34,997 nt of DNA from Pseudomonadota bacterium. Its GTDB lineage: Bacteria > Pseudomonadota > Alphaproteobacteria > HIMB59. A program made the position numbers and the translations under genes. Of this stretch, positions 6,871 through 34,548 are shown piece after piece. The notes beneath the pieces were generated by a model that was not told where the DNA came from, did no database searches, and saw nothing but the letters and a program-made list of their open reading frames with translations. The stretch covers positions 1-34,997 of the forward strand of contig JAQBUY010000003.1 in assembly GCA_027623775.1 (NCBI GenBank). Direction: 5' to 3'. The stretch's first letter is position 1. The number at the start of each line of letters is the position of its first letter.

Positions 6871-7428
6871 ATGTTATCAAAAGAAATATTAAGAGAAAAG
6901 TTTTTAGATTGGCAATGTCAATCAAGAATTCAATCTTTTAGATTGCAAAATGGAAGGCCAAATTCTTCAATGGCTCCTCTTTTATTAGACAAAAAAGGTA
7001 ATGAAATAAGTAGAATTATAGTTGTAATTACAGAAAACGATCCTGACAATACTACTAAAATGTTTGAACATATCAATAAAGAAACTTACGATCCAGCTAC
7101 TCGATTTGATAAAATGAATAAATTTCTTTCCTCTGAATATTTCATAGATAGAAATAATTTTTCCGACTCACTTTTTGCCACTTTTCCAATGAATTCTTCG
7201 ATTACTAAAAAAATACTTAAAGATATTTCTTGTACGTTAGATTTTATTCATCTCTCTACTAATTACCGTTTGATTTGCAGTGCATTTAAATTAGATATAA
7301 ATGAAGAGCATTGGGCAAATATTTACTGGCATAATAAGAACTTTAATCCTGGATTAGGGTCAGATATTGATGTAATCAAATTTATTCCCGACTGGAAAAA
7401 ATCAAAGCTTATTAGAATTACCGATTAA
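6871..7428 (+). CDS. Conserved-looking protein downstream of gmaS
   Basis: A 185-residue soluble protein without signal peptide or membrane helix. Recognisable patches are DWQCQSRIQSFRLQNGRPNSSMAP near the N-terminus (residues 13-36) and WANIYWHNKNFNPGLGSD near the C-terminus (residues about 147-164). From memory this resembles a hypothetical family found in Alphaproteobacteria with a DWQCRIRQ...GGRPSPGMRP signature; I cannot verify this or assign a function. It starts 6 bp after the gmaS stop and ends just before a bidirectional terminator, so it is the second gene of a gmaS operon and probably takes part in methylamine metabolism. Cysteines are few and scattered, so a metal cluster is not obvious. 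Confidence 0.75.
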   Translation: MLSKEILREKFLDWQCQSRIQSFRLQNGRPNSSMAPLLLDKKGNEISRIIVVITENDPDNTTKMFEHINKETYDPATRFDKMNKFLSSEYFIDRNNFSDSLFATFPMNSSITKKILKDISCTLDFIHLSTNYRLICSAFKLDINEEHWANIYWHNKNFNPGLGSDIDVIKFIPDWKKSKLIRITD

Positions 7429-17799: not shown

Positions 17800-18405
17800 T
17801 TATACTCCAACATAACCATACTCTAAAGTTGCATCAGTAATACTATGATAAAAAGAACCACCAAAACTTCTAAGGCAAAAGAGTCTGAATGTAGGATTTT
17901 CATCATCAGTAAAATCAACCATAAAACTGATACCGTTATATGTTGAATTGGCACAATTATTTTTTTTAAATTCTGAACTATTGAGGTTTAAAGGAGTTCC
18001 CTTTTTAAGTACATCTATTGAATGTTTTCCTGAAATCTCTATAACTGCTCTAGAGTGAGATAAATCAGTTGTAGCAAAATCTTCCTCATTAACAGCTTGT
18101 TCAATTTTATCTTTTATATTTTTATCTGAAGATACGACCATACAAATATCAGGGCCAGTCCATAAAATTCGAGTTTCATTGTTATAATTTACAGTCTGAT
18201 AAGTTTGGGGAAAATTAAGACTATCTATTTTAATTAAGTCTGTCTTAACATTACTGTTTTTAAATTTTGCTATTTGAAAAATTGAAAGATTTTTCAATTC
18301 CTTGACTGTAACTAAATTTTGTTTTTCTTTGTTTTGATAATCTCCAAAATTTCCAATTTGATGATCGTTATGTAATGCAGATAAAATTATATTTTGATCA
18401 GTCAT
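17800..18405 (-). CDS. mgdD: N-methylglutamate dehydrogenase subunit D (SoxG-like)
   Basis: A 201-residue homologue of the gamma subunit of heterotetrameric sarcosine oxidase. It has the family pattern of a GcvT-like fold: FQIAKFKN, the central DLSHSRAVIEISGKHSIDVLKKGTPLNL segment (about residues 114-141) and the ending RLFCLRSFGGSFYHSITDA. In N-methylglutamate dehydrogenase it caps the large MgdC subunit. The start overlaps the mgdC stop by one base (TAATG), so translation is probably coupled. Confidence 0.88.
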   Translation of the reverse strand: MTDQNIILSALHNDHQIGNFGDYQNKEKQNLVTVKELKNLSIFQIAKFKNSNVKTDLIKIDSLNFPQTYQTVNYNNETRILWTGPDICMVVSSDKNIKDKIEQAVNEEDFATTDLSHSRAVIEISGKHSIDVLKKGTPLNLNSSEFKKNNCANSTYNGISFMVDFTDDENPTFRLFCLRSFGGSFYHSITDATLEYGYVGV

Positions 18406-21404
18406 TAAGCTCTAACCCTTTCACCTTTAGGATCAACATAATGAGGGGGGACAACTTCAACAAGAATAGAAATATTTTTCAAAGGAGCAACAGCAAATAG
18501 TTTTTTACCGATTTTATTTTTACCATCTTTTAATACTGCTATAGAAAAAGGATTGTTGTATTCGACACTCCAACAAGATGAAGAAACATGACCTAATTTA
18601 GGATTAGGCAACTTAACCTTATCATCTTCAACTAAATGAGATCCTTCAGGTATTTTAGTTTTCTTATCAACAGGAACTAAACCTACTAAAGTTTGTCTTT
18701 CAGGATCATTGTAAGCTAATTTTTCTAAAGATCTTTTTCCAATAAAATCTTTTTTTTGACTTACCATGCCATGCAAACCAATATCATAAGGAACGGCCCT
18801 TCCATCGAGTTCAGGTCCAGAAACATGCCCCATCTCAATTCTTAAAGTAGCTAAAGCTTCTGTTCCATAAGGTTGAATACCGAATTCTTCTCCAGCTTTT
18901 ATAATTTCACTCCACATGAATAATCCATAATTTGAATCGACGTTTACTTCATATGCAAGTTCGCCTGAAAAAGATATTCTATAGATCTTCGCTTTAACTC
19001 CAACTATTTCAGCATCTTTAACACCCATGAAAGGAAAATTTTCAGTTGAAAAATCAATATTTGGAAAAAGTTTTTTCATTAAGTCTCTAGATTTAGGTCC
19101 TGCAACAGCCGCACCAGAAAATTGCTCAGTTGAAGAAACTACATTTACTTTTAATTCTGGCCATACCACTTGCAAATAATATTCTAAATGAGCTAGTACA
19201 TTAGCTGCCTGTGCAGTTGTAGTTGTCATATGAAAATGATTTTCTGACAGTCTAGTTGTAGTACCATCGTCAAATACCATACCATCTTCTCTTAACATTA
19301 CTCCGTATCTAGCTTTTCCTATAGGAAGTTTCATCCATGCATTAGTGTAAACTCTATTTAAAAGTTCTGCTGAATCAGGTCCTTTGATATCAATTTTACC
19401 CAATGATGTAACATCACAAATTCCAACATTTTTTCTAACATTTAACGCCTCACGATTAACGGCTTCAAACATACTCTCATTACCTCTTGGGTAGTAACGA
19501 GGTCTTAACCATAAACCAGCATTTGTGTACACTGCATTATTTTCTTCATGCCATTTATGAGTAGGAGTTTTTCTAGTTGGTTGAAAATGATTACCAACCT
19601 CTCTTCCAACAATAGTTCCGATTGTTACAGGAGTATATGGAGGTCTAAAAGTAGTATGACCAACTTCAGGAACAATTTTTTTTTGAATATTTGAAACTTG
19701 CTGTAAGCCATTTAAGTTACTTGTTTTACCCTGATCTCCCGCCATACCAAGAGTTGTATATCTTTTAATATGTTCGATAGATTTAAATCCTTCTCTTACG
19801 GCTAACTCAACATCAGAGACAGCAACATCATTCTGAAAGTCAATAAATCTTTTCGGATTTTCTCCATCAGGTAAAGGCATACACCAAATTTTTTCATGTG
19901 TTTCTGTTTTAGATTCTTTTGATACTGGAACTTCAGTTTTGATATTTTTTAAAGTTATTAAATTTGACAAATCAAAACCAGCTTGGAAACCTTCCTCTAA
20001 AGATTGTTTTAAGGTAAAAGAGCCATTAGCTGAACCGACCGTAGTCTCTTTTTGTTTTTTTTTATCTGGAACAAAAGCATCAATATTTTTATCAAATTTT
20101 AATTTATTGCCAGATTGAGATGATAGGTGAACTGTTGGTGTCCAGCCACCTGACATACATATACAATCACAGTTAATTTCTTCTAAATCAATAAAACTAT
20201 CTTTACTAGAATTAAGTTTTCCTATCGTTGCTTTGTTAACTTTTAAATGACCTTTAGTATTAGCTACACCAGAACTAAATCTTACTTCGATCCCTAATGA
20301 CTGTGCCTCTTTAACTAAATCTCCAGAAGAACTATCTCTTATATCAAGAACTAAAGGACTAATATTATTTTTTTTAAACTCAATTGCAGACAGGTATGCG
20401 GTATCATTATTAGTAAATATAATTGGATTTTTTCCAACTAAAGTTTCGTAGATTTTCATGTATTCATTTGCGGCTGAAGCAAGAAAGATACCAGGTCGAT
20501 CATTATTGCCAAAAGACAAAGGTCTTTCAATGGACCCAGTTGAAATAATAACTTCGCCAGCTCTTATATAATGTAATCTTTGGCGTGGAGCATACTTAGA
20601 AGGATTTTCAATATGATCGCTGACTCTTTCAAACATAACAGTCATATTATGATCATAATATCCAAATACCTGCGATCTATTTTTAAGAATTACGTTAGGT
20701 AAACTTTTAAGATGCTTGATTGTTTCTTCTGCCCATTCTGTTCCAGGCCTATTGTTAATCATGACCTCATCAGTTAAAAGAGAACCACCAAAATGAGCCT
20801 TATCTTCTGCTAAGATTACCTTGGCACCATTATTAGCAGCAGCCAAAGCACTAGCTAAGCCAGAAGGACCTGAACCAACAACAAGAACATCACAATGTTC
20901 ATAATTGTGTTCATATCGATCTGGATCTGGAGTTAAAGATGCAACACCCATACCTGCTGCTCTTCTAATTATAGGCTCATATATTTTCATCCAAAATGAT
21001 TTTGGCCACATAAAAGTTTTGTAATAAAAACCTGCAGGGAAAAAACGGTTAAGTAAATTATTGACTTCACCAATATCGAATTTCACAGAAGGCCAACAGT
21101 TTTGACTATTAGCTATCAATCCTTCTACTAATTCAACTTCAGTTGCTATAATATTTGGTTCTGATCGATCTCCCTCATGAAGTTGTACCATAGCATTAGG
21201 CTCTTCAACGCCTACTCCTAAAAAACCACGTGGTCTATGATACTTAAAACTTCTTCCAACTAAATGAATTCCATTAGCAATTAAAGCAGAAGCTAAAGTA
21301 TCACCCTCATAACCTAGATAACTTTCTCCGTTAAATTTAAAATTAATTATTTTAGATTTATTTAAAAAAGAATTTATATTTTTTGTTCTATAAGACTGGG
21401 ACAA
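18405..21404 (-). CDS. mgdC: N-methylglutamate dehydrogenase subunit C (SoxA-like)
   Basis: A 999-residue homologue of the alpha subunit of sarcosine oxidase. Order of parts: an N-terminal ferredoxin-like domain without cluster cysteines (NFKFNGESYLGYEGDTLASAL... RPRGFLGVGVEEPNA, about residues 20-72); a dinucleotide-binding domain (VLVVGSGPSGLASALAAANNGA, about 173-194) with a second NAD-type section to about 480; and a C-terminal GcvT-like tetrahydrofolate domain (about 620-985). It passes the methyl carbon of N-methylglutamate to tetrahydrofolate as methylene-THF and the electrons to NAD or another acceptor. It lies 2 bp after mgdB and overlaps mgdD by one base. Length is normal for the family. 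Confidence 0.93.
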   Translation of the reverse strand: MSQSYRTKNINSFLNKSKIINFKFNGESYLGYEGDTLASALIANGIHLVGRSFKYHRPRGFLGVGVEEPNAMVQLHEGDRSEPNIIATEVELVEGLIANSQNCWPSVKFDIGEVNNLLNRFFPAGFYYKTFMWPKSFWMKIYEPIIRRAAGMGVASLTPDPDRYEHNYEHCDVLVVGSGPSGLASALAAANNGAKVILAEDKAHFGGSLLTDEVMINNRPGTEWAEETIKHLKSLPNVILKNRSQVFGYYDHNMTVMFERVSDHIENPSKYAPRQRLHYIRAGEVIISTGSIERPLSFGNNDRPGIFLASAANEYMKIYETLVGKNPIIFTNNDTAYLSAIEFKKNNISPLVLDIRDSSSGDLVKEAQSLGIEVRFSSGVANTKGHLKVNKATIGKLNSSKDSFIDLEEINCDCICMSGGWTPTVHLSSQSGNKLKFDKNIDAFVPDKKKQKETTVGSANGSFTLKQSLEEGFQAGFDLSNLITLKNIKTEVPVSKESKTETHEKIWCMPLPDGENPKRFIDFQNDVAVSDVELAVREGFKSIEHIKRYTTLGMAGDQGKTSNLNGLQQVSNIQKKIVPEVGHTTFRPPYTPVTIGTIVGREVGNHFQPTRKTPTHKWHEENNAVYTNAGLWLRPRYYPRGNESMFEAVNREALNVRKNVGICDVTSLGKIDIKGPDSAELLNRVYTNAWMKLPIGKARYGVMLREDGMVFDDGTTTRLSENHFHMTTTTAQAANVLAHLEYYLQVVWPELKVNVVSSTEQFSGAAVAGPKSRDLMKKLFPNIDFSTENFPFMGVKDAEIVGVKAKIYRISFSGELAYEVNVDSNYGLFMWSEIIKAGEEFGIQPYGTEALATLRIEMGHVSGPELDGRAVPYDIGLHGMVSQKKDFIGKRSLEKLAYNDPERQTLVGLVPVDKKTKIPEGSHLVEDDKVKLPNPKLGHVSSSCWSVEYNNPFSIAVLKDGKNKIGKKLFAVAPLKNISILVEVVPPHYVDPKGERVRA

Positions 21405-21406
21405 TT

Positions 21407-21673
21407 TTATAATTCCTCTTCCAAACGTACAGTTTTAAAAATTTCATGTGTAGCTGTATCTCTTGAAACTTTAAACCATTGCCTACAACCTGAAATATGA
21501 TGCCATAATTCTGAATGCTTACCTCTAGGATTATCTCTGAAATAAACAAAATCATCCCAATCTTTAGTGCTTACTTCTTGTCCTAGAGCGGGCCTTTTAA
21601 CAGTTGCATCTCCACCATAGGCAAACTCATTTTGAGATCTCTTACCGCAGAAAGGACATTTAATTTCTAACAT
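21407..21673 (-). CDS. mgdB: N-methylglutamate dehydrogenase subunit B (SoxD-like, zinc)
   Basis: An 88-residue homologue of the small zinc-binding delta subunit of sarcosine oxidase. It has all four zinc ligands at the positions I recall for the family: Cys6 and Cys9 (CPFCG), His59 and Cys63 (WHHISGCRQWF). The ending RDTATHEI is also typical. It is located between mgdA (3 bp away) and mgdC (2 bp away). Confidence 0.92.
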   Translation of the reverse strand: MLEIKCPFCGKRSQNEFAYGGDATVKRPALGQEVSTKDWDDFVYFRDNPRGKHSELWHHISGCRQWFKVSRDTATHEIFKTVRLEEEL

Positions 21674-21676
21674 AAT

Positions 21677-22933
21677 TTAACCAATCCAAGGTTTTGGCCC
21701 TACACCCTTTTCGTCAATTATATTACCAGTATGAAAACGTTCTAAATTAAATGGTGCGTTCAATTCATGTACTTCGTCTTTGGCGATTGTATGTGCAAAA
21801 ACATATCCAGAACATGGAGTTGCTTTAAAACCACCGTAACACCATCCACAATTTAGATAAACACCCTCTATATGAGTTTTATCAATAATAGGGGTTCCGT
21901 CCATGGACATATCCATGATTCCACCCCAGCTTCTAAGCATTTTTAGTCTACTAAAATTTGGAAATACAGCTAGACCTCCTGATAAGACATGTTGGATCAT
22001 TGGCATGTTTCCTCTTTGTGCATAACTATTATAACCATCAAGATCTCCACCCATTACCATTTCCCCTTTATCAGATTGGCTACAATAAAAATGACCTGCT
22101 CCAAATGTCACTACGTTATCCAGCAAAGGTTTAACTGGTTCTGAAACACAAGCTTGAAGAACATGAGATTCAATTGGCAATCTCATATTTAATTTATCAG
22201 CAAGTAAAGTGGTGCTACCCGCAACACATAAACCAACTTTCTTAGCTTTAATATCTCCGCGTGAAGTTCTTACACCAGAAATTTTTCCATTACTCACATC
22301 AAATCCAGTTACTTCACAATTTTGAATTATATCAACTCCCATAGCATCAGCTTGTCTTGCATAACCCCATGCAACAGCATCGTGTCTTGCAGTTCCACCT
22401 CTAGGTTGCATTAATCCTCCAAAAATCGGAAAGCGAGAGTTTTCAGAAAAGTCTGCAAACGGAATCATTTTTTTAACTTCATCTCTATTTAATAAAACAG
22501 CATCGATTCCATTTAATCTCATTGAATTACCTCTTCTTGCGTAAGCATTAAGCTGTGCATCAGAGTGGGCAAGATTGATAATACCTCTTGGTGAATACAT
22601 GACGTTATAGTTAAGTTCTATGCTTAAGTTTTCCCAAAGTTTCATTCCGAATTCATAAAAATGAGCACTGGGGTCGAACATATAATTTGAACGAAGAATA
22701 GTTGTATTACGACCAACATTACCTCCACCAATCCATCCTTTTTCAAGGATAGCTACGTTAGTAATATTATGTTCTTTAGCAAGATAGTATGCTGTTGCTA
22801 AACCATGGCCCCCACCACCAATGATAATAACATCGTATTCTTTTTTTGGTTCTGGGTCTCTCCAAGCAACATCCCAATTTTGATGATTAGAAAATGCGTT
22901 TTTAATAAGACTAAGTGCTGAATATTTTTGCAT
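21677..22933 (-). CDS. mgdA: N-methylglutamate dehydrogenase subunit A (SoxB-like)
   Basis: A 418-residue homologue of the beta subunit of sarcosine oxidase, the flavin subunit that oxidises the N-methyl group. The FAD fold is VIIIGGGGHGLATAYYLA (residues 35-52). The covalent FMN histidine is His184 in RGGTARHDAVAWGYARQ, and the substrate-site region includes GGGNVGRNTTILRSNY (69-84). The C-terminal pattern is NCGWCYGGFKATPCSGYVFAH. It is the first gene of the seven-gene mgdABCD-mgsABC operon. Its 187-bp divergent region with tmm contains dyad D at 22993-23011, 60 bp before its start. Confidence 0.93.
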   Translation of the reverse strand: MQKYSALSLIKNAFSNHQNWDVAWRDPEPKKEYDVIIIGGGGHGLATAYYLAKEHNITNVAILEKGWIGGGNVGRNTTILRSNYMFDPSAHFYEFGMKLWENLSIELNYNVMYSPRGIINLAHSDAQLNAYARRGNSMRLNGIDAVLLNRDEVKKMIPFADFSENSRFPIFGGLMQPRGGTARHDAVAWGYARQADAMGVDIIQNCEVTGFDVSNGKISGVRTSRGDIKAKKVGLCVAGSTTLLADKLNMRLPIESHVLQACVSEPVKPLLDNVVTFGAGHFYCSQSDKGEMVMGGDLDGYNSYAQRGNMPMIQHVLSGGLAVFPNFSRLKMLRSWGGIMDMSMDGTPIIDKTHIEGVYLNCGWCYGGFKATPCSGYVFAHTIAKDEVHELNAPFNLERFHTGNIIDEKGVGPKPWIG

Positions 22934-22992
22934 AATTACTTTTTATTCTATGAGGAGAAATATATAGATCAATAAAGGATAGTGTATAATTA

Positions 22993-23011
22993 TGTTTCAA
23001 ATTATGGAACA
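22993..23011. promoter_or_regulatory. Putative IclR operator D (mgdA/tmm)
   Basis: TGTTTCAAATTATGGAACA, with core TTTCA-N5-TGGAA (one change from the consensus) and full outer arms TGTT/AACA. It is in the divergent promoter region of the N-methylglutamate operon and tmm: 60 bp upstream of mgdA and 109 bp upstream of tmm. It differs at 3 of 19 positions from operator B. Confidence 0.6.
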
Positions 23012-23120
23012 ATTTTAAGCTCTTTTTAATATTATTTAAATTAAATTATTCACAGGAAAAAGGGTTTTATTATCGATTTTTTTTTAATACGATAAGATAA
23101 TTCTAGTAGGAGTTATTAAA

Positions 23121-24461
23121 ATGGCAAGAGTAGCAATAATCGGAGCAGGTCCAAGTGGTTTAGCACAATTAAGAGCTTTTGAATCGGCAGAAAAAAAAGG
23201 AATCAAGATTCCTGAAATTGTATGTTTTGAAAAACAGGAAGATTGGGGTGGTCTGTGGAATTATACATGGCGGACCGGTACTGATGAATATGGCGAACCT
23301 GTTCATTGTAGTATGTATAGATACCTTTGGTCTAATGGGCCAAAAGAATGCCTTGAATTTGCAGATTATACATTCGAAGAACATTTTGGAAAACCTATTG
23401 CTTCTTATCCGCCAAGAGCAGTGATGCTAGATTATATTCAAGGAAGATTAGCTAAATCAAACTTTAGAAATAAAATAAAATTTAGAACACCTGTAAGAAG
23501 TGTTGTCTATAATAAAGAGGACGATAATTTTATCATCACCTCTCATGATTTAAAAAATGATCAAGTGAACTCAGAGGTGTTTGATTATGTCGTTTGTGCT
23601 AGTGGTCATTTTTCAACTCCTAATGTACCTACTTTCGAAGGTTTGGATAAATTTGGTGGTCGTGTTATGCATGCGCATGACTTTAGAGATGCTTTAGAAT
23701 TTAAAAATAAAGACTTACTGATTGTTGGAACAAGTTACTCAGCTGAAGATATAGCATCCCAATGTTATAAGTATGGAGCAAAATCAGTAACAATTAGTTA
23801 TAGAACAAATGCCACTGGATTTCATTGGCCGGAAAACTTTTCACAAGTTCCTTTAATTACAAAAGTTGAAGAAGGCAATACAGTCCATTTTAAAGATGGT
23901 TCAAAAAGAGTTGTTGACGCAATTATACTATGTACAGGATACCTGCATTATTTCCCATTCTTAACTGATGATTTAAAATTAAAAACAAATAACTGCTTAT
24001 GGCCTTTAGGAATTTATAAAGGGATTTTTTGGGTAGATAATCCAAAAATGATGTACTTAGGAATGCAGGATCAGTTTTATACTTTTAATATGTTTGATGC
24101 CCAAGCCTGGTATGCGAGAGATTATATACTTGGGAAAATTGCATTACCGTCAAAAGAAGAAATGTTAAAAAATAATCATAAATGGAAAGAAAGAGAAGAA
24201 AAACTTGAAACAGATGAAGATATGATTTGGTTTCAAGGTGATTACACTAAAGAACTGATTGAGGCGACAGACTATCCGACATTTGATATAGAGGGTGTCA
24301 ATAAAACTTTTATGGATTGGGAGCACGATAAGCACAATGACATCATGGGATATAGAAATAAATCCTATAAATCCTTAATGACTGGGACAATGGCACCTAT
24401 TCATCATACTGATTGGTTAAAAGAATTAGATGATTCCTATGAATCTTATATGAAGAATTAA
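23121..24461 (+). CDS. tmm: Trimethylamine monooxygenase
   Basis: A 446-residue flavin-containing monooxygenase that oxidises trimethylamine to TMAO with NADPH and oxygen. The FAD motif is GAGPSG (residues 8-13), the FMO signature F-x-G-x3-H-x3-F is Phe178-Gly180-His184-Phe188, and the NADPH motif is GTSYSA (203-208), with Tyr206 corresponding to the gating tyrosine described in Roseovarius Tmm. The stretch [26 protein letters not shown] is the one I know from marine Tmm. A good AGGAG lies 8 bp before the ATG. It diverges from mgdA and converges on tdm with only 4 bp between the stop codons. Confidence 0.96.
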
Positions 24462-24465
24462 ATAT

Positions 24466-26811
24466 TTAAGCTTTAACTCTTGATTTATCAGGATCATAAA
24501 AAGGAAATCTAACTACTTTTGCTTTAATTCTTTTTTGATGTCCATCTAATTTTCCAATTTCAACTTCAGTATCGATTGTGGAATAATTTATATCCATTTT
24601 ACATAAAGCAATCATCTTATTTAAAATAGGAGATTTTACTCCACTGGTAATAGTTCCAATTTGAGCTTTTGCTCCAATTTCATGCACACAATCACCATGA
24701 CCACAAAGCTCATTTCCCTCAATTTCCAAACCCACTAATGTTCTTTGAGGATTGGCTTTTCTTTTAATTAAGTTTTCTTTTCCTATGAAATCGTCTTCTT
24801 TTGATTTTAAAGGAACTGTAAAACTAATGCCAGCCTCAAAAGGATCTGTTTGATCATCAAACTCATAGTTTGCAAAAATTAATCCTGCTTCAATACGAAC
24901 TAAATCTAAAGCATCTAATCCCATAGGTGTAATTTTGAATTCTTCTCCCGCTTTCATTACTGCATCCCAAATTTCTGGCGCATGTCTTGGATGGCAAAAA
25001 ATTTCATAACCAAGTTCACCAGTGTAGCCGGTTCTCGAAACCATAATTGGAATTCCATTTATTTCATTCAGATTTCCAATAGTAAATCTAAACCACCCTA
25101 GTTCATCTAAAGAAGTTTGATGGGCTGGAGTCCATACAATTTTTTTAAGAATTTCTCTACTCTTAGGTCCTTGAACAGATACATTATGAAGATTATCAGT
25201 TGATGATTTAATCCAAACTTTTAAACCAAATTCTTTTGCTTTTTCTCTTAGCCACTCTCCACAATATTCATCTCCGCAAATCCAACGAAAGTTTGTGTCT
25301 GTCATTTTAAAAACAGTTCCATCGTCTATCATGCCCCCGTGATCATAGCACATTGCTGTATAAACAACTTGGCCAACCGCTAGTTTTCGAATATTTCTCG
25401 TACATGTTCTTTGCATTAATTCTTCAGCATCAGGTCCTAAAATTTCAAATTTTCTTAGAGCAGATAAATCCAAAATAATTGCTCTTTCTCGACAAGCTTC
25501 ATATTCCTGAAGGGCGCCATTATTATTATATTTTGTTGCAAGCCAGAAGCCCTTATAATCAATGATATTTTCTGTCAACTTAGAGACGCGTGGGTGAAAG
25601 CCTGTTTCTTTCGTTAATTTTGGTTCTGCATCGGGTTTCATTCTATAAGCTCCTCCTTTACTAAATGGCTTATTTGGTCGGTAAATTCTAACAAACATAT
25701 CTGTACAATTCCAACCATTAGCAGGATCTATATCATCAGGACAAGCTGAAGTTACACATACTAAGTTTTTTATAGCCTTCATTAAGATGTAATCCCCTGG
25801 TCTAGAATAAGGTTCATCGAAGACAATGGAATTGTTTGCATCAATACTTGTATTATAAAAAAGATTTATAGCATTCCAGCCCAATCTTTTTCTTACTGAG
25901 TAAGAGTCTAAAGCATAATTAAAATTATCAGAACAATTAGGATGTCCGAAATAGCCATGATCATCATAAAATTTAGATGTACAAGCTGTACCAAATGTAT
26001 CATGACGACCAACAGTATCTCTAATGACTTCAATTAAAGGTTCGTGATTTTCAGTAAAATATTTTGAGTGAAGGCCTGGCATTGATCCGCCACCCATAAG
26101 ATATCTTGAATTAGTAGTATCAATACCCACCTCTTTACCCTTTTGTAATAATCGAGCATCAAAAGCGGTAAAATCAGAACACTGTCTTCCGAACACATCG
26201 ATGACCTGAATATAATCTCCCTCTTCTACTTCATAGGCAATTGCTGTTTGTCTTTTAATAAAAATTTCATTGATAGGGTCTCCTATAGGGTCAGGTAAAA
26301 TATATTCACCTTCAATTCTAGACTTCGCTCTTTCCACAATTAACCTCAAGTCAGTTGCAGGAACTCCCTCTGAAAGAATATCAATTTCACCAGGAGCTGA
26401 AACAATACAAACACAATTAAGTTGTGCAGTAAATTTTTCAATTGAACCTGTTAAAGACTCATTAGAAAAAACTAAAACTGATTGATTGATAGATTTGATA
26501 TCAATTTTAAATTTTTTTAATTTTAAACGAACTACTGTCGCAGATTCATTCTCTTGATTTAAAATAAACTTTGTGAGTTTACCGTCATGCTCTTTTTTTA
26601 ATCCTAATGCCGATAGGTCATTTTTACCATTTTCTAAAAAACAAACTATTTCAGCTTTTTGATGACCTTCTAAATTAACAATATGGAAGCTATCTCCCCG
26701 TTCAAGCTTAATAGCCATAGACCCATTACCATGAACGGAATATTGCTCTTGATTATTTCCTAAAGCAGGCAATCCTGGTTCATACGGTCTAGATACCGTT
26801 GGTATAATCAT
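24466..26811 (-). CDS. tdm: Trimethylamine N-oxide demethylase
   Basis: A 781-residue two-domain enzyme that splits TMAO to dimethylamine and formaldehyde, with capture on tetrahydrofolate. The N-terminal half (about 1-390) is the DUF1989-type metal domain. Cys277 (TACTSK), Cys293 (PNCSD) and Cys357 (SACPDD) have spacings of 16 and 64, the same as the three zinc cysteines I recall for Methylocella Tdm (263, 279, 343). The C-terminal half (about 405-781) is a GcvT-like THF domain with LDLSALRKFEILGPDAEELMQR, VQGPKSREIL and GYTGELGYEIFC. The SMR gene and the tmo operon lie upstream on the same strand, but the 87-bp gap holds its own dyad E, so it probably has its own promoter. Confidence 0.94.
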   Translation of the reverse strand: MIIPTVSRPYEPGLPALGNNQEQYSVHGNGSMAIKLERGDSFHIVNLEGHQKAEIVCFLENGKNDLSALGLKKEHDGKLTKFILNQENESATVVRLKLKKFKIDIKSINQSVLVFSNESLTGSIEKFTAQLNCVCIVSAPGEIDILSEGVPATDLRLIVERAKSRIEGEYILPDPIGDPINEIFIKRQTAIAYEVEEGDYIQVIDVFGRQCSDFTAFDARLLQKGKEVGIDTTNSRYLMGGGSMPGLHSKYFTENHEPLIEVIRDTVGRHDTFGTACTSKFYDDHGYFGHPNCSDNFNYALDSYSVRKRLGWNAINLFYNTSIDANNSIVFDEPYSRPGDYILMKAIKNLVCVTSACPDDIDPANGWNCTDMFVRIYRPNKPFSKGGAYRMKPDAEPKLTKETGFHPRVSKLTENIIDYKGFWLATKYNNNGALQEYEACRERAIILDLSALRKFEILGPDAEELMQRTCTRNIRKLAVGQVVYTAMCYDHGGMIDDGTVFKMTDTNFRWICGDEYCGEWLREKAKEFGLKVWIKSSTDNLHNVSVQGPKSREILKKIVWTPAHQTSLDELGWFRFTIGNLNEINGIPIMVSRTGYTGELGYEIFCHPRHAPEIWDAVMKAGEEFKITPMGLDALDLVRIEAGLIFANYEFDDQTDPFEAGISFTVPLKSKEDDFIGKENLIKRKANPQRTLVGLEIEGNELCGHGDCVHEIGAKAQIGTITSGVKSPILNKMIALCKMDINYSTIDTEVEIGKLDGHQKRIKAKVVRFPFYDPDKSRVKA

Positions 26812-26864
26812 AAATTTATTTTAAACATAAAATCAAAAATAATCTTTATGTTAATATTATTTTT

Positions 26865-26883
26865 TGTTTCATATAGTGGAATT
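26865..26883. promoter_or_regulatory. Putative IclR operator E (tdm)
   Basis: TGTTTCATATAGTGGAATT. The left arm is identical to operator B over nine bases; the right arm is weaker (TGGAAT). It lies 53 bp upstream of the tdm start, in the gap after the SMR gene. Confidence 0.5.
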
Positions 26884-26898
26884 ATGTGCAAATTATGA

Positions 26899-27231
26899 TT
26901 AAGTAGATATTTTAGAAAAAATATTTAAAATTATCACACCAAGTAAAATCAAACTTAGTCCTATGATTCCTGCAATATCCATTTGATTTTTAAAATAAAA
27001 AATACCTACTAAAGTTAATAACACTATTCCAAATCCTGACCATACCGCATAAACATATCCAATAGATTCAAAATTTTTAAAGGTTAAAGCTAAAAAATAA
27101 AAACAAGCAGAATAAGATATTACAGTTAGAATGCTTGGTTTAAGAATAGTAAATCCTTCTGACGCCTTCAAAGAAGATGTTCCTATCACTTCTAGGGTAA
27201 TTGCTAAGAAAAGGTATAAATATTTAATCAT
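26899..27231 (-). CDS. Small multidrug resistance (EmrE-type) transporter
   Basis: A 110-residue, four-helix protein of the SMR family. The essential membrane glutamate is Glu14 (AITLEVIGTS), and the signature YAVWSGFGIVLLTLVG is at about residues 61-76. SMR dimers export quaternary and other cationic amines in exchange for protons. It starts 7 bp after tmoW, so it is the fourth gene of the TMAO-uptake operon. That suggests a methylated amine as substrate, for example export of excess amine or of a demethylation product. The substrate is inference, and drug export is the default annotation. Confidence 0.85.
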   Translation of the reverse strand: MIKYLYLFLAITLEVIGTSSLKASEGFTILKPSILTVISYSACFYFLALTFKNFESIGYVYAVWSGFGIVLLTLVGIFYFKNQMDIAGIIGLSLILLGVIILNIFSKIST

Positions 27232-27238
27232 TTAACTA

Positions 27239-29296
27239 TCACTCTATGCCAAGTAATTTTTTTTGTCTGTCAGCCCAGGTTCGGATTAAATGATCCACCG
27301 CAAGACACATGAACGATACAAATATTCCAAGAGTCAGTGCAACTCCAGCTCCATCACTTCTCGATAATGCTCCCATTATTACCTGACCTAAATCTTCAGT
27401 GCCGATTAAAGCCCCAAGAATTACCATGAATAGTGAGAAAATAACGGTTTGATTAATTCCTAACATTATATGAGGAAAAGCTAAGGGTATTTCAATATTT
27501 GTCCATCTTTGTAACCTGGAAACGCCCGACATTGACCCTGCCTCATGAAGAGATAAGGGAACACTCCTAAGTCCTTCTATAGTATATCTTGTTGCTGGTA
27601 TTGTTGCATAAACAATAGCTGCAAGTAAAACAGAAGTATCCGTTATTCCAAAAAGAAGTATTACGGGTATTAAATAAACAAAAGAAGGAAATGTTTGAAA
27701 AAAATCACAAATAAAAAGCATAAATTTAGTAGATTTAGAATTTTGTGCACAAATAGATCCAACTACTAAACCTATCACTGCAGAAATAAGAACGGCAAAT
27801 GTTGCCATATAAGCTGTAATTAAAGCTCTATCCCAATACTCAGATAAAGCGATAAATAAAATTAATAGGCCTACAATTACGGCTGATCTAATACCACCAA
27901 TAATATATCCAACTCCCATCACTAAAATAAAAGTAGAGATAACGGGCATTCCCAAATAAGCATTTTTCATAGGAACCAAGACATTAGTAATTAAAAAAAT
28001 ATTAAATGAATTTAAATAGTAAAAAAACGTTTCCCATACCCAATCAACAGCAGAATCAATTAAAGGAGAAATGCTAAAACCTTTTTCGTATGGAATAAGA
28101 TATAAATAGTTAATATTATTGAAATAGAGACTGCCTAGATACGCAAAGACAGAACCTATAATTAAAATTACTACAAAATAAATTAGATTTTTATTTCTTT
28201 GAAAAAAATTCAAGTTTGCAAAATAATTTTTTTGTTTATTAGCCCATGCAAGAGAGAATTTATCTAAAACGACAGCTATAATCACAATGCAAATTCCTAT
28301 TTCTGCTGCTTTTCCAATCTTTAATGAATTTAAGGCTAGTTTTAAATTAAAACCTAAACCTTTCGCTCCAATAAAGGATGCGATAACTGTCATTGCTAGA
28401 CACTGCATAATAACTTGGTTAACTCCGATTAAAATATCTGTTCGTGCCGTAGGAATAAGAACTTTGAACAATAATTGAAATTTATTGCATCCACTCATCA
28501 ATCCAGACTCAACAACTTCAGGAGATATTTTTTTTAATCCAAGAATAGTTAATCGAACCATTGGAGGTGTCGCAAATATAATAGTTGCAATAGCACCTGC
28601 ATGATCTCCAATACCAAATAATATCATAACAGGAACTAAAAAAGAAAAATGAGGCATTGTTTGAGCAATATTTAAAATAGGTTGCAAAGCGTTTTCAACT
28701 TTATTATTTAAGTAACCCCATATTCCAAGACTTAGGCCAAAAATAAAACAAATTGGTGCTGTAATCAGAACGAAAGATAAAGTTTGCATTGAAGGCTGCC
28801 ATTGTCCAAAAAAAGATAAATAAAATGCTCCAATTCCAGCTAGTAAAGCTAGTCGAATACCTTGCAGTTGCATACCTATTAACATAAAACCAGCAACTAC
28901 TACCGTCCAGGGAAGAGCTGGCCATGTGAACCATTTATTGGCGCTCATCCAAGACCCATCGACAAAAACACCTATAGTCTGAGCACCACCTAAAAAAATC
29001 TCTCTAATAAAAACAATTAAAAATAAGACCCCTCTTGAAATAGCTCTGGTTACCTCTCTAAAAATAGGTTTATCTTCATACATTTCAAATACAGGGTCCC
29101 ACACCTTCAGAGGAAACCACTCGTACAAAGCATTATAAATTAAGTTATTAATAAATAAGGGGAAGCCTTTAAATAAAGGCGGGAATCTCCATAAGTAATT
29201 ATTTTCTGAATGAGGAATTATGAAGTAAAAAAATAAAAAAACTAAAATCAACAGACCAAACTGCATTGGTCTAGAGTTTTTAAGATTATTAATCAT
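27239..29296 (-). CDS. tmoW: TMAO ABC transporter, fused double permease
   Basis: A 685-residue inner-membrane protein made of two ProW/OpuAB-like permease units in tandem. Each unit has its own cytoplasmic EAA-type loop that contacts the ATPase: residues about 262-283 (VESGLMSGCNKFQLLFKVLIP) and about 583-604 (LHEAGSMSGVSRLQRWTNIEIP). A single chain thus supplies both halves of the channel. This long form is what I know from TmoW of marine TMAO transporters. It follows tmoV by 13 bp and precedes the SMR gene by 7 bp. Confidence 0.9.
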   Translation of the reverse strand: MINNLKNSRPMQFGLLILVFLFFYFIIPHSENNYLWRFPPLFKGFPLFINNLIYNALYEWFPLKVWDPVFEMYEDKPIFREVTRAISRGVLFLIVFIREIFLGGAQTIGVFVDGSWMSANKWFTWPALPWTVVVAGFMLIGMQLQGIRLALLAGIGAFYLSFFGQWQPSMQTLSFVLITAPICFIFGLSLGIWGYLNNKVENALQPILNIAQTMPHFSFLVPVMILFGIGDHAGAIATIIFATPPMVRLTILGLKKISPEVVESGLMSGCNKFQLLFKVLIPTARTDILIGVNQVIMQCLAMTVIASFIGAKGLGFNLKLALNSLKIGKAAEIGICIVIIAVVLDKFSLAWANKQKNYFANLNFFQRNKNLIYFVVILIIGSVFAYLGSLYFNNINYLYLIPYEKGFSISPLIDSAVDWVWETFFYYLNSFNIFLITNVLVPMKNAYLGMPVISTFILVMGVGYIIGGIRSAVIVGLLILFIALSEYWDRALITAYMATFAVLISAVIGLVVGSICAQNSKSTKFMLFICDFFQTFPSFVYLIPVILLFGITDTSVLLAAIVYATIPATRYTIEGLRSVPLSLHEAGSMSGVSRLQRWTNIEIPLAFPHIMLGINQTVIFSLFMVILGALIGTEDLGQVIMGALSRSDGAGVALTLGIFVSFMCLAVDHLIRTWADRQKKLLGIE

Positions 29297-29309
29297 AATT
29301 TATTGATAG

Positions 29310-30344
29310 TTAATGGCCAAATAAAACTTTAATTACTTTTGATGGATAAAGAGTTCCGACTACTTGGTTATTTTTGGGATCGATGACTGAAATTGGTTCT
29401 TTACTATTTAAAATTGATTCAGCAACTGTTTGAATTATAGCATCCTTAGAAATTTTTAATGAGTTAGAGTTATTTCCATCAGGAGGATCCATAATGGATT
29501 CAATTTTAAGAATTTTTTCTCTTGGAACATCTTTTGTAAATTTTTTGACATAGTCAGTTGCAGGATTTAAAACAATATTATCGGGTGTGTCTAACTGTTC
29601 AATTATCCCATCTTTCATAATTGCAATTCTATCTGCCAAACGAAGAGCCTCATCAAAGTCATGAGTGATAAACATAATTGTTTTATTTAAAACTCCTTGT
29701 AATCGTAAAAATTCATCCTGCATCTCTTTACGAATTAATGGATCAAGAGCAGAAAAAGGCTCATCAAGAAACCAAATGTCTGGTTCGACAGCAAGTGAAC
29801 GGGCAATACCTACTCTTTGCTGCTGTCCTCCGGAAAGTTCTCTTGGAAAATAATTCTCCCTTCCCTTAAGACCTACTAGTTCGACCATCTCCATAGCCTT
29901 GTTTACACTTTCTTTTGTAGCCATGCCTTTAACTTGAAGTGGGAACGCAATATTTTCTAAAACTGTTTTATGAGGCAACAAGGCAAAATTTTGAAAAACC
30001 ATTCCCATTTTATTTCTTCTAAGTTCAATGAGCTCTTTACTATTCATGGCATTGAGATCTTCTCCATCAATATAAATTTTTCCAGATGTTGATTCAGTCA
30101 GTCTTGAAATGCATCTTAATAATGTAGATTTACCAGAGCCTGATAAACCCATAACTACTAGCATCTCACCTTTATAAACTTCTAAGGAAGCATTATTTAC
30201 ACCAACAATACATCCTGCTTCTTGAAAGGCTTTAGCGTCAACTTTGCCATTAGAATCATCAAGTAGCTTTTTGGCATTTGGTCCAAATATTTTATAAACT
30301 GACTCACATTTAATGACAGGTTTTGAATTATTAGCGTTTTGCAT
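29310..30344 (-). CDS. tmoV: TMAO ABC transporter, ATPase
   Basis: A 344-residue ABC ATPase of the ProV/OpuAA type. Walker A is GLSGSGKST (residues 66-74), the Q-loop is in VFQNFALLPHKT, the signature is LSGGQQQRVGIARSL, Walker B is IWFLDEPFSALDP and the switch histidine is in FITHDFDEAL. The C-terminal section (about 285-344) keeps a single short CBS-like piece, less than the two CBS domains of osmoregulated ProV. It powers TMAO import with TmoX and TmoW. An intrinsic terminator-like hairpin separates it from tmoX upstream. Confidence 0.92.
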   Translation of the reverse strand: MQNANNSKPVIKCESVYKIFGPNAKKLLDDSNGKVDAKAFQEAGCIVGVNNASLEVYKGEMLVVMGLSGSGKSTLLRCISRLTESTSGKIYIDGEDLNAMNSKELIELRRNKMGMVFQNFALLPHKTVLENIAFPLQVKGMATKESVNKAMEMVELVGLKGRENYFPRELSGGQQQRVGIARSLAVEPDIWFLDEPFSALDPLIRKEMQDEFLRLQGVLNKTIMFITHDFDEALRLADRIAIMKDGIIEQLDTPDNIVLNPATDYVKKFTKDVPREKILKIESIMDPPDGNNSNSLKISKDAIIQTVAESILNSKEPISVIDPKNNQVVGTLYPSKVIKVLFGH

Positions 30345-30378
30345 ATTTATAATAATTATAATCTCAAAATAAAGAAAA

Positions 30379-30400
30379 ATCCCCCCAGAAAAGGGGGGAT
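30379..30400 (-). terminator. Attenuator/terminator between tmoX and tmoV
   Basis: On the minus strand, ATCCCCCC and GGGGGGAT form a perfect 8-bp stem around a 6-base loop, followed by TTTTCTTTATTTT (down to about 30366). It lies in the 82-bp gap after the binding-protein gene. It should stop most transcripts after tmoX and let a fraction continue to tmoV and tmoW, which gives excess binding protein. Confidence 0.85.
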
Positions 30401-30426
30401 AATAAATTAAATTTAATTGGAGCTTA

Positions 30427-31380
30427 TTACTTCAACCACTGGTCAACAGCACTTCTGTTGTTAGTGATAAAAGCAGTTGCTGCATCGGCATGCGTCATAC
30501 CTAAGTTATCAACGTTGTTAGCCATTTCACCGATTTGACCGGCAGTAGCTTCCATTTTAGTTAAGAACTTATATGCACTAGGATGAGTAAGAGGGAACTT
30601 AATATTAGCGGCCTTCTTTAACCAACCTATTGGAGAACCACAACCTGTTGTTTCAACAGATCCACCATCTTCAATTCTACACCCTTGATAAAAAGTAGGG
30701 AATTTGATGAATGTAAATCCTTCTGCATCAGTAAAGTTTGGTGTCCAGTTAAAAATCACTGTTCCACGTCCTTCTTTTTTAGCAGCAGCAAGTTCAGCCC
30801 AAAGAGCATCAGCACTTCCTGCAAACTTAACAGTCCACTTATCATCTAAGCCAAGACCTTTAAGTCTGTTAGGCATAACATCACCATGCCACTCTTGAGG
30901 TCCTTCTAACCAACGGCCTTTTCCTTCTGAGTCAGCAGTAGCAAAGTTTGCGCTACAATCTTTTAATGCTTCCCAAGCTGGAAGACCAGGACATAAGTCT
31001 TGCTCAATAACCCAGTTAGGTACACCCATATCTTCTAGAGTTGGAGCTGCATGGCTACCGGCATCAATTAAGCCACCTTTATCCATTGCTTCATACATAG
31101 GCTTAGCCATAGTTGACTGCCATGTTTCGTGAGCTAAATGAAGATCACCTACTCTTACAGCTTCATATCTTGAAGCGGATTCAGCAGGAACTAATTCAAC
31201 ATTGTAACCTAATTCTTCATATACCTGAGCAATAACATTAGCCATTACAACTTGACTTGACCAGTTTAACACTGGGATTCTAATTGGATCTGAGCTAGCA
31301 GCTTTTGCAATATTAGCAAAACTTGATAATGCAATAACTAATGTAGCGATTAATCCAACAATACTATTTCTTACTTTCAT
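30427..31380 (-). CDS. tmoX: TMAO-binding periplasmic protein
   Basis: A 317-residue OpuAC/ProX-like binding protein. The signal peptide is residues 1-27 with a cut after IAKA. The mature part has several tryptophans that could form the aromatic cage for a trimethylammonium-type ligand: LNWSSQ (Trp40), HETWQSTM, GRWLEGPQEWHGD and FNWTPNF. Two cysteine pairs (CPGLPAWEALKDC and GCRIEDGG...TTGCGSP) may form disulphides. It is the first gene of the tmoXVW operon and has a strong GAGGAG Shine-Dalgarno (31387-31392). Glycine betaine or choline binding is the alternative, but the tmm/tdm neighbours favour TMAO. Confidence 0.92.
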   Translation of the reverse strand: MKVRNSIVGLIATLVIALSSFANIAKAASSDPIRIPVLNWSSQVVMANVIAQVYEELGYNVELVPAESASRYEAVRVGDLHLAHETWQSTMAKPMYEAMDKGGLIDAGSHAAPTLEDMGVPNWVIEQDLCPGLPAWEALKDCSANFATADSEGKGRWLEGPQEWHGDVMPNRLKGLGLDDKWTVKFAGSADALWAELAAAKKEGRGTVIFNWTPNFTDAEGFTFIKFPTFYQGCRIEDGGSVETTGCGSPIGWLKKAANIKFPLTHPSAYKFLTKMEATAGQIGEMANNVDNLGMTHADAATAFITNNRSAVDQWLK

Positions 31381-31530: not shown

Positions 31531-31549
31531 AGTTTCACAAGTTGAAACA
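31531..31549. promoter_or_regulatory. Putative IclR operator F (tmoX/alr)
   Basis: AGTTTCACAAGTTGAAACA, with 6-bp perfectly complementary arms GTTTCA/TGAAAC and the same 5-bp spacer as the other sites. It ends 7 bp before the alanine racemase ATG and lies about 150 bp upstream of tmoX, so it may control either or both. Confidence 0.55.
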
Positions 31550-31556
31550 GAAAAAT

Positions 31557-32660
31557 ATGGACAAAATTAATACATATATAGAAACTATTGAAAAAGCTCA
31601 ATTATATATAGATTTAAAAGCTCTTAAGTATAATTATAAATTAATTAATCAATTAACCAAAGAATCTGTCATTATTGGTATCGTCAAAGGTGATGCATAT
31701 GGGCATGGAATGCTACAATGCTCTAAAACATTAATTAAATCAGGATGTAAACATTTATATGTAGCTAATATAGAAGATGCCCTAAAATTAAGAAGTTATT
31801 ATAGAAAAGTAAGAATTTTTGTTCTCTCAGGACCAATCAATCCTCATGAAGTAGAAACTTTAGATAGCAATAAAATCACTCCTATTATTAATAACCCTGC
31901 CCAATTAGAACTCGTTTTAAAATACAGTTTATTAAAAAATAAAAAAATGAATGCAATTATACAGATAGATACTGGAATGAATAGAATGGGCTTTAAACAT
32001 AATGAATTTTCTTATCTAAATGAAAAATTAAAAATGTTGAATGTATCATTTTTAATGAGTCATTTTACTTCAGCTGATGAAAAAGATAAGAAAAATAGTA
32101 ATAAACAATTAAAGCAATTAGTAAATTTAAATCAAAATCTTAATTATAAATTAAGCATCGCTAATTCATCAGGTTGCTTCTTAAATTCAAGTTATCATTT
32201 AGATTATGTAAGACCCGGTAAGAGTCTTTATGGTATGAACCCTTTTAAAAAAAAATCATTTAAACTTAAGCAAGTTGCTTCATTGTATGCACCTATAATT
32301 CAAACCTCTTCCATTAATAAAAATGAAACGGTAGGTTATGGGAAAACATATACAGCTCAAAAAAAAATAAAAACTGCCACTATTAATTTTGGTTATGCGA
32401 ATGGATATATGAGATCAGGAAGTAGTCGGGCAGTCACTTATATAAATAGTATTCCGGCTAAAGTTCTTGGAAGAATCTCTATGGATTTAATTACGATCGA
32501 TGTTTCAAACATCCCTGATCAATTTTTGTACTTAGGGTATCCTGTTGAAATATTAGGGAAAAATGCAACTTACGAAAAAGTTTCAGAATCCTTGGGAACG
32601 CACGAGTTAGAGACTTTAATTTCGATAGGTCTTGGGACTCAAAAAAAATATTTATCTTAA
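31557..32660 (+). CDS. alr: Alanine racemase (PLP)
   Basis: A 367-residue fold-type III PLP enzyme. The PLP lysine is Lys44 in GIVKGDAYGHGM, the substrate segment is IDTGMNRMGF, and the catalytic-tyrosine region is NFGYANGYMRSG; the C-terminal motif GRISMDLITIDV is typical. I start it at the ATG at 31557; a TTG at 31542 would give five more residues but falls inside dyad F. It interconverts L- and D-alanine for peptidoglycan. It lies between tmoX and a BHMT-like gene, diverges from the first and is followed by the second after 24 bp. Whether the methylamine context is meaningful (a racemase for another amino acid) cannot be told from sequence. Confidence 0.88.
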   Translation: MDKINTYIETIEKAQLYIDLKALKYNYKLINQLTKESVIIGIVKGDAYGHGMLQCSKTLIKSGCKHLYVANIEDALKLRSYYRKVRIFVLSGPINPHEVETLDSNKITPIINNPAQLELVLKYSLLKNKKMNAIIQIDTGMNRMGFKHNEFSYLNEKLKMLNVSFLMSHFTSADEKDKKNSNKQLKQLVNLNQNLNYKLSIANSSGCFLNSSYHLDYVRPGKSLYGMNPFKKKSFKLKQVASLYAPIIQTSSINKNETVGYGKTYTAQKKIKTATINFGYANGYMRSGSSRAVTYINSIPAKVLGRISMDLITIDVSNIPDQFLYLGYPVEILGKNATYEKVSESLGTHELETLISIGLGTQKKYLS

Positions 32661-32684: not shown

Positions 32685-33732
32685 ATGAATCTTATTGAGA
32701 GATTAGACCAAGGTCCTGTTATTTGTGCAGAAGGCTATTTATTTGCTATGGAGAGAAGAGGCTATCTTTCAGCAGGAGCTTATGTACCGGAATGTTGTTT
32801 TAGAACATCCTGAAGTAGTGACTCAATTACATCGTGAATTTATTAGATCTGGTTCTGATGTTGTTGAAGCCTTCACTTATTATGGGCATCGTGAAAAATT
32901 AAAACTAATTGGGAAAGAACATCTTTTAGAGTCTCTTCAAACGAATGCTTTAAAAATTGCTAAAGCGGCAGCTGATGAATTTCCAGAATTAAATTTGATG
33001 GTTGCGGGCAATGTTGCAAATACGAACATATACGATCCCGCAGATAAACAATCCCATATCTATTGTCAAAAAATGTTTGAAGAACAGATTGGTTGGGCAA
33101 AAGATGCAGGAGTTGATTTTGTAATAGCGGAAACAATTAATTGGACCGGTGAAGCTCAAATAGCTCTTAAAGCTATTAAGGATGCTGGAATGATCGCTGT
33201 GGTTAATTTAGCAATCCCGGCTGGTCCATTTGGAGATAAAACAAGAGACGGTCAATCAGCTAGTGAAGCTTGTAAAATATTAGAAGATCATGGGGCAGAT
33301 GTAGTTGGCTTAAATTGTTATCGTGGCCCTACTATGATGAAAAAACTACTCCCCGAAATAAGAAAAAGTGTTTCTTGTCATGTTGCTGCCCTGCCCGTTC
33401 CCTTTAGAACAAATGAGCAATATCCAACTTTTATGTACATTAAAGATGAAGGTTGTGATTGTATTGACGGTAATGTTTCTCATATTGCCCTAGATGGTCT
33501 AACATGCACAAGGTTTGAAATGGGGAATTTTGCGAAAGATTGTGCTGAAATGAATGTAAATTTTATTGGTATTTGTTGTGGGGCAGACCCTCACCACGTA
33601 AGAGAGATGGCTGTTAGCTTAGGCAGAAAGCCAATCGCCTACAAATATTATCCCGACATGAACAAGCATTTCGCTTATGGTAATGACAAACAACTTAAAG
33701 AAATTAATGATTCTAAATATTTAAAACCATAA
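32685..33732 (+). pseudogene. bhmt: BHMT-like homocysteine S-methyltransferase, single-base frameshift
   Basis: A methionine-forming methyltransferase of the betaine-homocysteine/S-methylmethionine type. The N-terminal 36 codons (from ATG 32685: MNLIERLDQGPVICAEGYLF... up to AGAYVPE) are in one frame. The remainder, starting VVLEHPEVVTQLHREF, is in the +1 frame. The join reads VPE, one extra T at 32793, then VVLEHP, which is exactly the expected family sequence once that base is dropped; left in place it gives a stop at 32811-32813. The rest is intact, including the zinc ligands Cys in GLNCYRGP and the Cys pair in GICCGADPHH. A shorter ORF from 32725 carries an out-of-frame N-terminus and is not a proper start. 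It could be a real mutation, a sequencing/assembly error, or a frameshift signal. It follows alr by 24 bp. Confidence 0.8.
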
Positions 33733-33827: not shown

Positions 33828-34031
33828 TTAAACCTTTTTTAATTTCTCAGCTTTGCTTTTTCCTCTATCTTCAACAATTTCAAATTCAACCTTATCTCCT
33901 TCGTCGAGACGATCAATTCCTGCTTCTTGAAGAGCTGTGATGTGAACGAAGATGTCTTGATCGCTACCTTCTGGTGCGATAAATCCAAATCCTTTTTGTG
34001 GGTTAAACCACTTTACTGTTCCTGTAGTCAT
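33828..34031 (-). CDS. Cold-shock domain protein, copy 1
   Basis: A 67-residue single CSD protein, an RNA/ssDNA-binding OB fold. The RNP1 motif is KGFGFI (residues 13-18), RNP2 is DIFVHITA (26-33), and aromatic contacts are Trp8, Phe9 and Phe15/17. AAAGG lies 8 bp upstream of the ATG. The second copy lies 168 bp upstream and is closely similar at both protein and DNA level, so this is a recent tandem duplication. The 168-bp leader region contains an AU-rich hairpin close to the ribosome-binding site. Confidence 0.95.
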
Positions 34032-34047
34032 GTTAGTACCTTTCTGT

Positions 34048-34067
34048 ATTATATATTTTTATATAAT
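34048..34067 (-). promoter_or_regulatory. AU-rich hairpin in the cold-shock leader
   Basis: ATTATATA (34048-34055) and TATATAAT (34060-34067) form an 8-bp AU-only stem with a 4-base loop. It lies 17 bp upstream of the ATG of copy 1 and next to the Shine-Dalgarno. It is weak and temperature-sensitive, as in some cold-shock leaders, but it may also be only AT-rich promoter DNA. Confidence 0.3.
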
Positions 34068-34199
34068 GTTTGTTTTTAGTTAAGAGCCATACACTGAATT
34101 TTATAAACAGAGTATTTCTCGAGAATAATTATTTAATCTAAAGACGATCATCTACGATAAACCGGACCTGCGATAAAATAAATTGTTCGAGGGAATAAA

Positions 34200-34403
34200 T
34201 TAGATCTTTTTTAAGTTCTCCGCTTTATTTTTTCCTCTATCTTCAACAATTTCAAATTCAACCTTATCTCCTTCGTCGAGATGGTCTAATCCGGCTTGTT
34301 GAACAGCTGTGATGTGAACGAAGATGTCTTGATCGCTACCTTCTGGTGCGATAAATCCAAATCCTTTTTTTGGGTTAAACCATTTCACTGTTCCTTTAGT
34401 CAT
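34200..34403 (-). CDS. Cold-shock domain protein, copy 2
   Basis: A 67-residue CSD protein almost identical to copy 1: [14 protein letters not shown] and the ending [12 protein letters not shown] are shared. I start it at the ATG giving [11 protein letters not shown]; an upstream extension to 34457 would add an 18-residue tail unlike any CSD protein. AAAGG precedes the chosen ATG. The differences are concentrated in the loop between residues 34 and 41 and in the tail. No clear terminator lies between this copy and copy 1, so read-through is possible. Confidence 0.95.
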
Positions 34404-34548
34404 TTCGTAACCTTTCTTATTAGTAAAAATAAAGATTAATAAATCTAATATCTGCAAACAATGTTTTTTTGGAAACTAAGTAATGAATATTCAATAAAAT
34501 TAACCTTAAGTATTCTAATATTAATATAGATTTCTTTCTAAAAAACAA

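Follow-up and report, generated by a model that had tools for sequence, protein, structure and literature searches.

The betaine-homocysteine methyltransferase (BHMT)-like gene that starts at ATG 32685 of the window, by which we mean the whole stretch of 34,997 nucleotides analysed here, is of a kind common in marine bacteria and is broken by a single surplus T at position 32793. A consensus or assembly error at this position is the best explanation of the broken frame, and we give it a probability of about 0.65. The feature is most likely a draft error, with a very recent mutation as the next possibility; either way it is ordinary and represents no new kind of thing.

Reading frames, family and neighbourhood

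After 36 homocysteine S-methyltransferase codons, the frame of the BHMT-like gene breaks. When read directly, the frame that opens at 32685 gives MNLIERLDQGPVICAEGYLFAMERRGYLSAGAYVPE, then CCFRTS and a TGA at 32808-32810, and the frame from 32794 reads VVLEHPEVVTQLHREF and continues to a TAA at 33730-33732. The initial annotation had proposed that these two parts encode one protein family in different frames and that a single extra T separates them. Both proposals agreed with a tblastn comparison using the intact orthologue of the nearest relative, G023: residues 1-36 matched 32685-32792 in frame +3, residues 37-344 matched 32794-33726 in frame +1, and exactly one base, T 32793, was left between the two segments. 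Such a split of one protein is far beyond chance, as the N-terminal 36 residues are identical in a relative whose gene is intact at full length. The start of the gene is common to same-genus relatives. The features of the gene are as follows.

32685..32792, + strand: opening 36 codons of the BHMT-like gene, with intact start and first barrel strand ICAEG; 100% amino acid identity to G023 residues 1-36
32793..32793, + strand: surplus T breaking the frame; missing in G023 (alignment L002) and in all ~40 homologous copies compared
32808..32810, + strand: premature TGA in the starting frame, past the extra T, from direct reading; preceded by an in-frame TCC
32794..33732, + strand: remaining 311 codons and TAA in the shifted frame; PF02574, 143.8 bits; 93% identity to G023 residues 37-344; human BHMT 1lt7, E 8e-32
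32725..33732, + strand: mechanical ORF of the shifted frame with a GTG start; Pfam match from residue 22

The first ~22 residues of the mechanical ORF are non-family sequence, and an internal ATG at 32782 is in frame with it. As had been observed from the letters, the site lies outside any long homopolymer: T 32793 is flanked by A and G (GGAA-T-GTTGTTT) and belongs to no homopolymer at all. Placement of the surplus base in the TT or TTTT run was also considered, but this would yield VPECV or VPECC; neither was present in any homologue, and 32793 is therefore the right base.

The shifted-frame part alone belongs to PF02574 (143.8 bits, cut-off 22) and its similarity to human BHMT (1lt7) reached 113.8 bits. 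Its GLNC and GICCG motifs align with the human zinc-site motifs GVNC and GGCCG, and the cysteines are present downstream of the T, which bears out the earlier remark that the zinc ligands are kept. The NCBI BHMT equivalog model NF005718 scored 83.1 bits, under its cut-off of 338, and ‘BHMT-like’ is therefore the safe name: the family assignment of the initial annotation fits, and the name BHMT itself is a functional guess. The enzyme is predicted to use betaine; the nearby betaine/choline-type transporter and the bhmT assignments in HIMB59 (PMC5069961) suggest glycine betaine as the methyl donor. The window copy alone carries an in-frame three-residue insertion at 33214-33250 (AIPAGPFGDKTRDG; AGPFGD) where relatives have AIPVGD or AIPKGD.

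The surroundings of the gene fit with betaine use, as the divergent betaine/choline-type transporter sits past the alanine racemase gene.

31542..32660, + strand: alanine racemase gene just upstream; PF01168, PF00842; alignment L002; order kept in the nearest relative
27239..31380, - strand: divergent glycine betaine/choline-type ABC transporter genes (binding protein, ATPase, fused permease); PF04069, ABC_tran, BPD_transp_1; NCBIfam choline/ProW permease matches

The transporter is part of a methylated-amine island (17800-31380) that also holds genes for sarcosine oxidase subunits (alpha and beta; gamma weakly), trimethylamine monooxygenase, TMAO demethylase and an SMR transporter. On the other side of the BHMT-like gene, two cold-shock protein genes stand in tandem at 33828-34457, as they do in G023. 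No riboswitch over the Rfam threshold was found upstream of the BHMT-like gene, here or in the related loci tested.

The site in relatives and selection on the gene

The site was aligned across ~40 homologous copies, comprising same-genus orthologues, the tandem paralogue of G029 and proteobacterial relatives at ~50% identity. Every one of them runs in a single frame across the site and reads VPEVV or VPEVL, never VPEC, in keeping with the earlier expectation that removal of the T would restore VPE-VVLEHP. Comparison of related genomes, which had been put forward as a check, thus found the extra base in none, from the closest relative out to distant Gammaproteobacteria. Neither the extra base nor relatives of the gene were found in viral contigs. 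The nearest relative, G023 (JAQWMI010000041.1; L002/L013), has an intact orthologue with 93% amino acid identity over the whole gene and the same neighbours as the window, namely the alanine racemase gene, the cold-shock genes and the betaine transporter; its copy has neither the extra T nor the three-residue insertion.

The window gene and its G023 orthologue gave a dN/dS of 0.036, and comparisons between intact copies gave 0.023-0.068. No second lesion was found in the BHMT-like gene. Purifying selection acts in full on the rest of the reading frame, and the gene is not decaying. An old pseudogene is excluded by these two results, and the frameshift, if real, must be very young. Assignable residue changes were few, numbering 5 on the window branch and 2 on the G023 branch, or 10 and 5, respectively, with G013 alone as the outgroup.

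Origin of the surplus base

The draft genome consists of 153 contigs, and 477 kb of it, when scanned for frameshifts against the ORFs of G029 and G023, revealed four further convincing single-base frameshifts.

C28 near 7,210 (7207-7219, L128): proS frameshift; lacks one base after ATTGA, within a short ATTGATTAGG stretch; relatives are one base longer, in frame in G013
C11 near 3740 (L071): M32 carboxypeptidase frameshift, in an A11 run
C5 near 590 (L065): FMN-dependent dehydrogenase frameshift, in an A9 run
C2 near 4930 (L062): frameshift in the gene for a 339-aa protein, in a T9 run

Three of the four thus coincide with A or T runs 9-11 bases long. The fourth lies in proS, an essential tRNA synthetase gene with no second copy in the genome, and should be read as an error on both counts. 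Two other apparent frameshifts, at C5 near 10,488 and C13 near 9,300, were set aside as probable over-extended reference ORFs. The same scan over 261 kb of G023 found no frameshifts; counted per gene match, the draft had 5/336 and G023 0/186, a difference that is not significant alone (Fisher p = 0.17). The orthologue in another draft genome, that of the relative G038 (C1:50870-51801; L195, L196), is otherwise 99% identical to the G029 copy but frameshifted near codon 113. This is also a one-base change, but at another position, so the event is not shared and breaks in the BHMT-like gene are sporadic. The G038 genome comprises 7 contigs and is rated only 69% complete, which together with its frameshift suggests many indel errors there.

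The frameshifts elsewhere in the draft, including that in single-copy proS, the clean scan of G023 and the different position of the G038 break together favour an error, and we infer that T 32793 is itself one. Accepting this, the window comes from a marine alphaproteobacterium of the HIMB59 type and would hold an ordinary gene for a BHMT-like homocysteine S-methyltransferase, close to glycine betaine uptake genes, with its frame broken in the draft by one wrong base of consensus or assembly origin. In the living population the gene would most likely be intact and encode the usual enzyme of ~347 residues, which would transfer a methyl group from glycine betaine, the presumed substrate, to homocysteine. 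Against an error, three of the four other frameshifts fall in homopolymers and the T does not, which makes it a less than typical sequencing error. We also considered whether a mosaic or chimeric assembly join lies at the T. The 108 bases before it (32685-32792) are 94% identical to G023, where the surrounding genes are mostly ~80% identical, and rank in the top 0.6% when the aligned stretch is divided into windows; equally similar blocks occur in the transporter and cold-shock genes, however, leaving only a weak hint.

A genuine loss-of-function frameshift that arose very recently and is fixed or common in the population sampled is the main rival reading, with roughly half the weight of an error. 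The cell would then have lost the methyltransferase and would obtain its methionine through other pathways. The draft encodes MetY/MetB-family enzymes and an intact MmuM-like homocysteine S-methyltransferase (C43:311-1186), so that the loss need not be lethal. There was no match in the draft to MetE-type (PF01717) or B12-dependent MetH (PF02965) enzymes. The position of the T outside a homopolymer, the slight excess of residue changes on the window branch and the lineage-specific AGPFGD insertion also speak for such a loss. Selection is nevertheless not relaxed across the gene overall, none of the relatives shows decay of its copy at the site, and only one BHMT-like gene was found in the draft, with no close paralogue to provide cover; the draft-wide frameshifts offer an alternative source for the extra base. 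If the T is genuine, a streamlined ocean bacterium would have freshly lost a route from glycine betaine to methionine, a point of modest ecological interest. Caution is due here, as the loss of the only BHMT-like route would hang on one base of a draft in which an essential tRNA synthetase gene likewise comes out broken.

The initial annotation had listed an error, a young pseudogene and a translational frameshift as options; this was the right set, with the draft-wide frameshifts favouring the first and the relatives excluding a conserved or programmed form of the last. A +1 shift, programmed or tolerated, could in principle restore a full-length product, for instance at the in-frame TCC-TGA (32805-32810), which resembles the antizyme shift site and where slippage would rejoin the frame at EVVTQLH. 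The same TCC-TGA, however, simply arises when the conserved CAT-CCT-GAA (HPE) codons are read at +1, and 12 of 30 intact copies have the same letters in the same out-of-frame register. The product would have CCFRTS in place of the conserved VVLEHP, the 70 nt downstream have a fold of ordinary stability (z -1.5), and no Shine-Dalgarno-type stimulator is evident directly upstream of the site. With the extra base in no homologue and TCC-TGA formed only by out-of-frame HPE codons, programmed frameshifting in this gene is unsupported and very unlikely. We consider it highly improbable that a +1 shift of any kind rescues the gene, and just as improbable that a strain-specific antizyme-like shift at TCC-TGA keeps the enzyme at a reduced level in this lineage. 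Least probable of all is internal initiation at ATG 32782, which is in the downstream frame and preceded by AGGAGCTT, with AGGAG just upstream: the shortened enzyme would have neither the first barrel strand nor the conserved ICAEG motif, the AGGAG letters are sufficiently accounted for as Ala-Gly codons of the normal frame, and no homologue begins there.

Comparison with known systems

HIMB59 has been described as having three bhmT genes, one mmuM and no metE or metH (PMC5069961). The complete genome G029 (1,410,127 bases) has three BHMT-like genes, in agreement with that bhmT count. In HIMB59 and ‘Ca. Pelagibacter’, the bhmT genes (PMC5069961) belong to the same family as the window gene and the reaction is likely the same, although the Pelagibacter gene sits behind SAM-II and SAM-V riboswitches and the window gene has no riboswitch above threshold. 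Human BHMT (1lt7) is a distant relative with a chain longer than the product of the BHMT-like gene, but the two align across most of the barrel, with cysteines aligned at the zinc-site motifs.
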